Assembly (NCBI RefSeq): GCF_037023735.1
Contig: NZ_CP146069.1
Coordinates: 1,715,501-1,779,500 of the forward strand
DNA: 64,000 nt
Source of the DNA: Roseovarius sp. S88
Lineage (GTDB): Bacteria; Pseudomonadota; Alphaproteobacteria; Rhodobacterales; Rhodobacteraceae
Direction: 5' to 3'
This document shows, piece after piece, positions 38,020 to 39,904 of this stretch (its first letter is position 1; every line of letters begins with the position of its first letter). Below the pieces are notes generated by a model. It did no database searches. It saw nothing but the letters and a program-made list of their open reading frames with translations, and was not told the DNA's origin. The translations under genes were made by a program, and so were the position numbers.

Positions 38020-39144
38020 TTGGGTTTTTCTTTTGATTTGCAGGCCACGGATGGCTCGGCACGTACTGGTGTAATCAACACGCCACGTGGAGACATCCGC
38101 ACGCCCGCTTTCATGCCTGTGGGCACGGCGGCGACGGTGAAGGCAATGATGCCCGAAAGTGTGCGCGAAACCGGTGCCGATATCCTTTTGGGCAACACCT
38201 ATCATCTGATGCTGCGCCCGGGCGCAGAGCGGATGGCGGCCCTGGGCGGGTTGCATAAATTCATGAACTGGCCACGGCCTATCCTGACCGACAGCGGCGG
38301 GTTTCAGGTGATGAGCCTGGCGGGGTTAAGAAAACTTACCGAAAAAGGTGTGACCTTTAAGAGCCATATTGACGGGTCCAAACATGAGCTGACCCCGGAA
38401 CGGTCCATGGAAATTCAGGCACTGTTGGGTTCGGACATTGTCATGTGTTTCGATGAATGCCCGGCGCTGCCTGCCACGGACGAAGAAGTGGCGCGCGCCA
38501 TGCGGCTATCAATGCGGTGGGCAGAACGCTCGAAGGTAGCATTCGGCGACCGGCCCGGACATGCACTTTTCGGCATTATGCAGGGCGGCGTGACGCAAGA
38601 GCTGCGCGAAGAAAGCGCCAAGGCGCTGGTTGAGATCGGGTTTGATGGTTATGCCGTCGGCGGCCTTGCCGTGGGTGAGGGGCAAGAGGCCATGTTCGGC
38701 GTGCTGGATTATGCCTGCGACAGCCTGCCAAAAGACCAGCCCAGATACCTGATGGGGGTAGGCAAACCGGACGATATCGTGGGTGCTGTGAAGCGCGGCA
38801 TTGACATGATGGATTGCGTTTTGCCCTCGCGTTCGGGGCGCACCGGGCAGGTTTTCACCCGGTATGGGCAGCTCAATATCAAGAACGCGCGTCACATGGA
38901 TGACACACGTCCGCTGGATGAGGCGTGTTCCTGTCCCGCCTGCCGCAACTATTCCCGCGCCTATCTGCATCACCTTTTCCGCAGTCAGGAAATTTTGAGT
39001 TCGATGCTGCTGACCTGGCATAATTTGCAGTATTATCAGGATATTATGAATGAAATGCGAGGTGCGATTGCAAATGGCAACTTTGCCCAGTGGGAAGAAA
39101 ATTTCCATGCCGGGTGTGCCCAAGGCGACATCGATCCGCTCTGA
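38020..39144 (+). CDS. tgt: Queuine/preQ1 tRNA-ribosyltransferase
   Basis: A 374-residue TIM-barrel enzyme with the nucleophile aspartate region [12 protein letters not shown], the tRNA zinc site motif [17 protein letters not shown] and a [13 protein letters not shown] segment. It exchanges guanine 34 in tRNA for preQ1 in queuosine synthesis, the step before QueA, encoded 17 kb away. The start is TTG at 38020; no ATG or GTG is in frame before it, and the family N-terminus begins here. Confidence 0.95.
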
Positions 39145-39204: not shown

Positions 39205-39218
39205 AGGTGATATCGCCT
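39205..39218. promoter_or_regulatory. Near-palindrome AGGTGATATCGCCT upstream of peptide ORF 1
   Basis: A 14-base near-palindrome with one mismatch around GATATC, centred about 58 bases before the first 22-codon ORF. A similar GATATC-centred palindrome lies at the same distance before the third ORF, so this may be a shared regulatory site. Confidence 0.4.
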
Positions 39219-39269
39219 GACTCGGGGTAAGATACCCGTGTTTTAGTGATGTCTGTGAGTGATAGTATT

Positions 39270-39338
39270 ATGCCTTTTGCTATGTTTGCTGTGAGCTGGA
39301 TGTCAGCAGCCGTTTTGGCGGTCGCTGTTCTGGCGTAA
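39270..39338 (+). CDS. Hydrophobic 22-residue peptide, array copy 1
   Basis: ATG at 39270 to TAA, 22 codons. It begins MPFAMFAVSWMS and continues with Ala, Val and Leu to a VLA end, so it is one short membrane segment. Compared with copy 3, 17 of 22 residues are identical while nine of the identical residues use a different codon, so change is concentrated at silent positions, which supports translation. The ribosome site is weak. It is the first of three tandem paralogues between tgt and lon. Confidence 0.65.
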   Translation: MPFAMFAVSWMSAAVLAVAVLA

Positions 39339-39372
39339 AATTAAGGTTCGTTATGATCCGTTTACCCTTTGA

Positions 39373-39431
39373 GAAGGTTTTGCATGCACCTTCGGTTTCA
39401 CGGGCGGTTCACGCCCGGTTGATGGGAACCG
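39373..39431 (+). other. Cluster of three small hairpins before peptide ORF 2
   Basis: Three stems are possible in a row: GAAGGT (39373-39378) with ACCTTC (39388-39393); CGGGCG (39401-39406) with CGCCCG (39412-39417); and CGGTT (39416-39420) with AACCG (39427-39431), the last two being exclusive. The block ends six bases before the second ORF. It may be an RNA regulatory leader or a terminator after copy 1. Confidence 0.4.
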
Positions 39432-39436
39432 ATAAA

Positions 39437-39505
39437 ATGTCTTTTGCTGTCTTTTCCTTTTCCTGGGCCTTTATGGCGATGGTCGCAATTTCTCTGCTGA
39501 CCTGA
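39437..39505 (+). CDS. Hydrophobic 22-residue peptide, array copy 2
   Basis: ATG at 39437 to TGA, again exactly 22 codons. It starts MSFAVFSFSW, keeping the SW pair at positions 9-10 seen in all three copies, then AFMAMVAISLLT. It is more divergent than copies 1 and 3 but has the same length, the same FAxF start and full hydrophobicity. It lies behind a cluster of small hairpins with GATGGGAA upstream of the ATG. Confidence 0.6.
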   Translation: MSFAVFSFSWAFMAMVAISLLT

Positions 39506-39548
39506 CCTCGCCGGATTTTGGAGCCGCACGCGCGTTTATGTGACCTAA

Positions 39549-39566
39549 AGTCAGGATATCCTGACT
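39549..39566. promoter_or_regulatory. Perfect 18-base palindrome AGTCAGGATATCCTGACT
   Basis: A perfect 18-base palindrome centred on GATATC, about 63 bases before the third 22-codon ORF. It is a candidate operator or RNA hairpin without a loop. It resembles, with the shared CTGACT arm, the shorter GATATC palindrome before copy 1. Confidence 0.55.
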
Positions 39567-39620
39567 AGGCGTGTGTGCGGTCCTTTCCTAGTTTGATGTG
39601 TAACCAGTGAGGACCTGACC

Positions 39621-39689
39621 ATGCCATTTGCCGTATTCGCCGCCAGTTGGATGTCCGTTGCCGTTTTGGCAGCGTCCGTTTTGGCCTGA
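39621..39689 (+). CDS. Hydrophobic 22-residue peptide, array copy 3
   Basis: ATG at 39621 to TGA, 22 codons, with GTGAGGA seven bases upstream, the best ribosome site of the three. It begins MPFAVFAASWMSVAV and ends SVLA. It differs from copy 1 at five positions, all conservative (Met/Val, Val/Ala, Ala/Val, Val/Ala, Ala/Ser). It is a predicted single membrane helix of the size of small regulatory or type I toxin peptides. No function can be assigned. Confidence 0.7.
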   Translation: MPFAVFAASWMSVAVLAASVLA

Positions 39690-39751
39690 ACCCTTAAACA
39701 AACCTGAAATTTGATTGAATTCGCGCTTGTGCCAGCGCTGTGCGCACGGCA

Positions 39752-39784
39752 TTGTCAGCGCCACAGGTAAAACGACCCCATATA
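39752..39784 (+). promoter_or_regulatory. Possible heat-shock (RpoH) promoter of lon
   Basis: CCCCATATA at 39776-39784 matches the RpoH -10 box. TTGTC at 39752-39756 is a weak -35 candidate, with longer than usual spacing. It lies about 120 bases before the lon ATG. Lon is a heat-shock protein in related bacteria. Confidence 0.35.
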
Positions 39785-39904
39785 AGCCCACCAAGGTTGA
39801 AACAGGGCGGGCATCGCCCCAGATTAACCTCATCGAAACGGAAAAGGCCGGGCGTTGCCGCCAAGTCGGGACCAGAGCCTTTTTGCGAGTATAGGATATC
39901 GAGC

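Follow-up and report, generated by a model that had tools for sequence, protein, structure and literature searches.

Can three open reading frames (ORFs), each of 22 codons and a stop codon, be genes, and if so, what would peptides of this size do? The question arises in the stretch of Roseovarius sp. S88 DNA analyzed here (64,000 nt, hereafter the window), where three such frames lie between a tRNA-guanine transglycosylase gene and the lon protease gene. They had been pointed out in a sequence-only reading, and we verified both their coordinates and their shared (+) strand. The observation is thereby confirmed, and the interpretation that came with it is partly supported by the comparisons described below. 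The upstream neighbor we take to be tgt, as in the earlier reading.

38020..39144, + strand: tgt, tRNA-guanine transglycosylase, from the ORF list; its C-terminus is a synteny anchor and it forms the upstream boundary of the locus
39270..39338, + strand: copy 1, 22 codons, MPFAMFAVSWMSAAVLAVAVLA, from the ORF list; orthologs in L022, L023, and L115
39437..39505, + strand: copy 2, 22 codons, MSFAVFSFSWAFMAMVAISLLT, from the ORF list; orthologs in L022, L023, and L115
39621..39689, + strand: copy 3, 22 codons, MPFAVFAASWMSVAVLAASVLA, from the ORF list; orthologs in L022, L023, and L115
39906..42307, + strand: lon protease gene, start ATGAAAGATCCCC, from the ORF frame; its N-terminus is a synteny anchor and it forms the downstream boundary of the locus

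The start of copy 1 is ambiguous, with GTG codons upstream in frame and a 30-amino-acid version from 39246 in the ORF list. As had been counted before, 17 of 22 residues are the same in copies 1 and 3, and nine of these use different codons. Copy 2 is less similar (52% to copy 3). At the DNA level, the repeat formed by copies 1 and 3 spans 70 nt, that is, the ORF with its stop codon and one further base, and no similarity was found around these two ORFs beyond it. When the whole genome was searched at E values up to 10, the three copies were the only matches. Shortly 5′ of copy 2, at window positions 39400-39418, there is a hairpin-like stretch (ACGGGCGGTTCACGCCCGG) that by eye recurs in L115 with small changes and may contribute to controlling this copy.

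Coding potential

The way in which the copies differ points to constraint on their products. The 19 mismatches between copies 1 and 3 are split 3/3/13 over codon positions 1/2/3, and none of 20,000 random placements of these mismatches retained as many residues. For this pair pN/pS was 0.14, versus 0.69 for copies 1 and 2 and 0.45 for copies 2 and 3, from which we conclude that copy 2 has diverged more. Among nine groups of orthologs, raw pN/pS was 0.06, 0.26, 0.25, 0.18, 0.29, 0.28, 0.29, 0.08, and 0.30, and mismatches were distributed 229/79/456 over the three codon positions. Copies 2 and 3 had zero gaps across the three nearest relatives. The gap columns of copy 1 fall at its stop codon, which by eye was split by the aligner, and the 22-codon ORF is intact in all four genomes compared.

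Judged by these substitution patterns, purifying selection is acting on the peptide itself, and the family is real and coding. The sequence-only reading had suspected such selection, and the range of 0.06 to 0.30 in the nine ortholog groups bears it out. We also looked for three signs that would speak against a coding family, namely the lack of a conserved ORF at the site, frame-disrupting indels, and dN equal to dS; instead, the ORF was conserved at the site, its frame was undisrupted, and dN was below dS.

Phylogenetic distribution

An unannotated family of small proteins was what the earlier reading had inferred, and the genus bears this out, with the family conserved at the same site in relatives. 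A profile of 44 members detected 41 places in 27 of the 84 genomes of the genus. All but two of these places (39/41) share the strand of tgt and lie 101-2220 nt past its matched end. The other two consist of one true copy elsewhere (G062:C38, MAYAAFAFSWMSVAILAVALLA) and one weak, partial match (G092:C64, E = 0.014) that we left out, so that 39 of 40 credible places are just downstream of tgt on its strand. The true copy outside the tgt-lon interval (L269, G062:C38:139204-139269) has, by eye, no upstream palindrome of the kind described below. Three linked copies were present in G000 (the genome of the window), G008, and G075, and two copies in six genomes; the rest have a single copy (17 single-copy genomes in the genus). 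Farther downstream comes lon in all loci but a few, where the fetched DNA stops short of it.

Other searches gave a consistent picture. A first search with copy 3 against 60 genomes had matches in 13, own genome included. In the first search of relatives, tgt was present in 20/20 loci and lon in 19/20, the other locus ending too early. We located the end of tgt in 81 of the 84 genus genomes and read the DNA behind it. A position-specific scoring matrix (PSSM) scan of 171 loci, which include repeats of one genome, returned 49 family ORFs, and the range from 8 to 30 bits was empty. The accepted family ORFs are beyond chance: they score at least 30.7 bits, and none of 370 candidate ORFs on the reverse strand of the same regions exceeds −12.4. 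Because the stop codon was part of the tgt query in this and the other scans of these loci, some regions started only at the following in-frame stop (67 nt late in the genome of the window), and at least one member (G072) was missed. The search of the 84 genus genomes with the 44-member profile is free of this effect.

Outside the genus the peptide is rare. Across the order, the first profile matched 15 of 390 genomes at E = 0.1, and three of these are chance matches; the order-level matches L109, L110, and L112, which were partial and in loci without tgt or lon, were left out. In the bacterial family, 5 of 394 genomes matched the second profile at E = 0.02, and all four besides the own genome had the peptide flanked by tgt and lon. 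A few other genera also carry the peptide, likewise between tgt and lon. The nearest tgt, from an uncultured Roseovarius (L115), has three copies behind it, while R. albus and an uncultured Tateyamaria each have one. The plasmid and phage collections, searched with copy 3, gave no match, and in the portions of the literature consulted we found nothing on a 22-residue peptide family.

On a tree of Tgt and Lon pieces, presence of the peptide needs 13 changes versus 22.7 in shuffles (0/500 as low), on a quickly built tree in which 17 of 78 inner branches are well supported. Presence on the tree is clustered but patchy. With 57 of the 84 genus genomes lacking a match, either the function can be dispensed with or some members have diverged too far.

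Predicted structure of the peptides

The family comprises 43 distinct 22-mers, in which W10 is invariant (43/43) and A17 (42), F6 (40), and L21 (39) are nearly so. Position 3 is F or Y in 43/43, and position 9 is S or G in 36/43. None of the 860 residues at positions 3-22 of the 43 sequences is D, E, K, or R, and K occupies position 2 in five of the peptides. Mean Kyte-Doolittle hydropathy over the 43 sequences is 1.86. Conservation is periodic, with a moment of 0.30 at 100 degrees (permutation P = 0.00035) and a best angle of 97. The natural reading of these features is a predicted membrane helix with one conserved face.

Searches of family libraries returned little. Among the 44 members scanned against Pfam, the only hit was DUF2759, in three members (best E = 0.013); no match was obtained in NCBIfam for five members or in PADLOC for 44 members. 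We considered a C-terminal degron and dropped it, because residue 22 is not fixed (A 29, V 6, G 5, T 2, S 1; n = 43).

Putative promoter architecture

Upstream of copy 3, the window contains a set of putative expression signals:

39549..39566, + strand: palindromic putative operator of copy 3, AGTCAGGATATCCTGACT, from the expectation-maximization (EM) motif, at −72 from the start codon
39589..39594, + strand: putative −10 box of copy 3, TAGTTT, 22 nt past the operator; information peaks T40, A41, and T45
39609..39613, + strand: Shine-Dalgarno-like GAGGA of copy 3, read from the sequence

The EM procedure, run on 43 upstream regions, gave GGTCaGGaaaaCCtg.aT. As a pattern, the palindrome GTMAGG-N4-CC is present in 23 of the 43 regions, at −70 to −83; in full it reads GTMAGG-N4-CCTKAC, with a right half that is often degenerate. 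When the 23 promoters are aligned on the operator, T, A, and T information peaks appear 22 nt later, at the position of a −10 box. A clear palindrome is absent upstream of copies 1 and 2 of the window, and the upstream regions of these copies and of the two-copy clade differ from the palindrome type. We also asked whether the palindrome could be an RNA stem and rejected this, because by eye the right half frequently does not pair.

A position weight matrix (PWM) of the site scored more than 11 bits in 26 of 35 peptide loci, a count that is circular because the PWM was built from peptide-locus sites, versus 8 of 132 loci without a detected peptide, a count that is not. Two of those eight (L077 and L032) turned out to have a family peptide immediately behind the site. 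Near the tgt end of L171 and L186, the palindrome is followed by a hydrophobic ORF of 24 codons with a GTG start (MSFKYLIFIVMVAASVVLAAPSLA), which the PSSM scan did not report and which is possibly a remote or convergent family member.

The arrangement around the ORFs suggests that each is expressed on its own. An opposite-strand ORF separates the peptide gene from lon in L105, L106, and L108, and the gap to lon reaches 0.7-0.9 kb with an opposite-strand ORF inside; the peptide gene can be remote from tgt as well as from lon, with ORFs of this kind in the intervening DNA. In L054 and L047, a GC-rich, terminator-like hairpin and a T run follow copy 1 (by eye). We read the copies as separate mini-genes because of their differing upstream regions, the hairpin with its T run, and the distance to both neighboring genes with its opposite-strand ORFs. 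Because the upstream regions differ, the copies are probably expressed under different conditions.

Additional sites of the palindrome

The same site was first seen outside the interval before a flavin adenine dinucleotide (FAD) oxidoreductase gene, in the own genome and in G095, with both strands examined:

L303, G000:C1:2474232-2474867, − strand: FAD_binding_4 oxidoreductase gene preceded by the palindrome at −71 to −78; further loci L304-L318

Among the 18 genomes of the genus with this gene, 15 have the palindrome before it at −71 to −78; the PWM scores are 13.7-17.8, versus at most 7.9 for the reversed control. In 10 of the 15 sites, the A and T of the −10 box occur at the spacing of the peptide promoters. 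The protein looks exported, and its start (MRKLSRRALLLGGGALIGG) is Tat-like. A common regulator is likely because the same palindrome occurs at the same distance before the FAD oxidoreductase gene.

The two genes often occur apart. The FAD gene is absent at E = 1e-20 from 15 of 27 peptide genomes, and the peptide is absent from 6 of 18 FAD-gene genomes. The peptide was present in 12 of 18 genomes with the FAD gene versus 15 of 66 others (Fisher P = 0.001, raw), and a tree-aware comparison left three to five independent pairs that had no direction. We rejected co-occurrence as proof of a partnership, the independent pairs being too few and directionless.

Extending the search to other genes yielded leads of varying quality. 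With the tail of the peptide promoter included, the pattern matched 27 times in the own genome (24 in the reversed control) and 36 times in the genus (25 in the control), and 15 of those 36 were tgt-lon sites. This pattern gave background only for other targets among the 12 of 27 own-genome matches and the 16 of 21 other genus matches that we inspected. Without the tail, there were 150 matches versus 64 in the control across 14 chosen genomes, palindromic sites being counted on both strands. A simple ORF rule, to which 76 of 93 distinct sites were put, placed 25 of the 76 in intergenic DNA. The palindrome also recurs at places other than such promoters, several of them between other genes. In L396, L401, L380, L324, and L227, it lies 71-84 nt before ORFs with signal-peptide-like starts (by eye, in single genomes). 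We treat this as a lead only, because the ORFs that follow the site in L352 (68 nt) and L250 (71 nt) lack such starts.

There were also two recurrent intergenic GTAAGG-N4-CCTTAC sites, many with a ACGTNACGT palindrome approximately 20 nt away (L325, L323, L321, L336, and L354 for one; L322, L330, L358, L363, L368, L376, and L383 for the other). One set appears to adjoin an AsnC/Lrp-like regulator ORF, and the other to precede a stretch like TTCCGTGAGTGGTGGCTTT.

A broader proposal, speculative and rather unlikely to hold, is that the peptides and exported proteins such as the FAD oxidoreductase are induced jointly, in response to an envelope or redox signal, by an undescribed activator binding at GTMAGG-N4-CCTKAC, the peptides being the membrane arm of that response.

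A candidate structured leader upstream of lon

The 3′ part of the interval holds a second candidate element:

39836..39892, + strand: RNA hairpin of 57 nt with covarying pairs, 5′ of lon, from the match of RNA model R1 (G000:C1:1755336-1755392) and covariation

The hairpin has two parts, and 96.1% of cells pair among 32 selected sequences, versus 82.7% in shuffles and at most 62.9% in slid versions, where the structure was derived from the same 32-sequence alignment that gave these figures. Both sides have changed in 9 of 13 pairs. Of 61 genomes in the order, 53 have a single match to the RNA model, and the hairpin lies 11-16 nt before the Lon start codon in 30/30 loci checked. Rfam had no match at the lon leader in the window or in six relatives; its matches elsewhere were all under gathering scores, and by position none was in the lon leader. 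The portions of the literature consulted yielded nothing on a lon leader RNA, and in PMC2864571 the words lon and Rhodobacter have 0 occurrences. We regard the hairpin as a candidate for a new cis-regulatory RNA of lon. Farther 5′ of the leader, at window positions 39726-39755, the stretch CTTG...GGCATTGT resembles, by eye, a heat-shock sigma promoter.

Candidate functions

We propose that the three paralogous genes encode uncharged, single-helix peptides of the inner membrane that are expressed from regulated promoters of their own and act on a membrane protein partner, a reading to which we give an even chance. Copy 3 and most single-copy relatives would have their own promoter, made up of the palindrome, the −10-like box, and the Shine-Dalgarno-like stretch ahead of the ORF. 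The center of the palindrome would fall near −43 from the putative transcription start, and class II activators sit near −43 from the start of transcription. One regulator, presumably an activator, would serve the peptide genes and other genes, at least that of the FAD oxidoreductase. Once made, the peptide would form a single helix within the membrane, where its conserved face (F3, F6, W10, V13/A14, A17, and L21) would pack on the partner and adjust its activity or stability, as with known small membrane regulators. We prefer this reading because it best accommodates what we see: a predicted helix that lacks charge and has a sharply conserved face, a patchy distribution, promoters that appear regulated, and duplicates with different control regions. 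The conserved face could serve self-assembly instead, as in a pore-forming toxin. A membrane-stress regulator, as suggested in the sequence-only reading, is possible.

There are precedents for such peptides. MgrB (on PhoQ) and MgtR (on MgtC) are single-helix membrane peptides that each act on a specific membrane protein, and YohP is a 27-amino-acid membrane protein with a single helix, like the peptides described here. The present family differs from all three in being shorter (22 residues) and in having tandem paralogs at one syntenic site.

Ranked second, and unlikely in our view, is that the peptides are type I toxins like Ibs and Ldr, which insert in the membrane, depolarize it, and are restrained by an antisense RNA. 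Their length, hydrophobicity, predicted single helix, and tandem copies fit, and as in Ibs/Sib and Ldr/Rdl, there are several copies per chromosome of a very short hydrophobic peptide; being short, hydrophobic, and tandem is common to other small membrane peptides, too. In the part of PMC8309996 consulted, tandem duplication of small hydrophobic proteins is a search criterion that found ZorO, and IbsC, ShoB, and DinQ are without positively charged C-terminal residues, so the missing charge of our peptides does not count against a toxin. However, unlike in Ibs/Sib and Ldr/Rdl, the repeat between copies is limited to the ORF, with no common flank or region seen that could encode an antisense RNA, and the one antisense promoter-like match, inside copy 1, compares to 0.5 expected by chance. 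Matches to named toxin families were lacking in Pfam, NCBIfam, and PADLOC, libraries that may lack Ibs/Ldr models. The residue-specific conservation, with W10 in every peptide, seems beyond the needs of a depolarizing helix. With neither a shared antisense-coding flank nor a toxin-family match, the toxin-like character that had been suggested earlier is so far not supported.

The peptides might instead belong to an enzyme complex of the membrane as accessory subunits, comparable to the very small subunits found in respiratory oxidases, and be required for assembly, not regulation. A charge-free helix with one conserved face would suit this role, and a short F-A-x-S-W-M stretch in the peptides resembles, by eye, CcoQ of the own genome. 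FixQ/CcoQ is a longer oxidase subunit with charged tails. On the family PSSM, CcoQ scored 1.2 bits, below seven other segments among 165,099 22-mers, and none of the 44 members matched FixQ/CcoQ (PF05545) in Pfam at E = 0.1; we rejected homology to CcoQ, since its score is at the level of unrelated segments. Presence in 27 of 84 genomes also misfits an obligate subunit, unless the complex itself is patchy. We consider this quite unlikely.

It is improbable that the peptides act on Lon as dedicated substrates, inhibitors, or membrane tethers, which would explain their place beside lon. Their location is strikingly constant (39/40 credible genus places just past tgt, with lon farther downstream in nearly all), and 29 of 43 peptides end in A, mostly as -LA. 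Yet plain vertical inheritance can account for a fixed place, with presence clustered but patchy on the tree; the last residue varies; and the gap to lon extends up to 0.7-0.9 kb with an opposite-strand ORF within it. Leader peptides whose translation controls lon by attenuation, a reading prompted by short ORFs 5′ of lon on the same strand, are very improbable given the opposite-strand ORFs that intervene in L105, L106, and L108, the conservation along the full length of the peptide, in which no single regulatory amino acid is repeated in a row, and the structured leader that lon itself has 11-16 nt before its start codon in 30/30 loci.

Implications

The family combines features in an unusual way: its tryptophan is invariant, its predicted helix carries no charge, its tandem paralogs differ in their upstream regions, its chromosomal site is fixed, and it has a palindromic element in common with another gene. 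The palindromic promoter element is a handle for finding the regulator, and the 17 single-copy genomes are simple targets for deletion. Because selection shows that the gene is coding, this 22-codon family is also a test case for small-ORF callers. In a bolder reading still, the proposed activator, if real, and the covarying leader RNA of lon would make the tgt-lon interval a two-part locus for the control of Lon. Proteins of fewer than 25 residues are a poorly known class, to which the finding contributes one coherent family.
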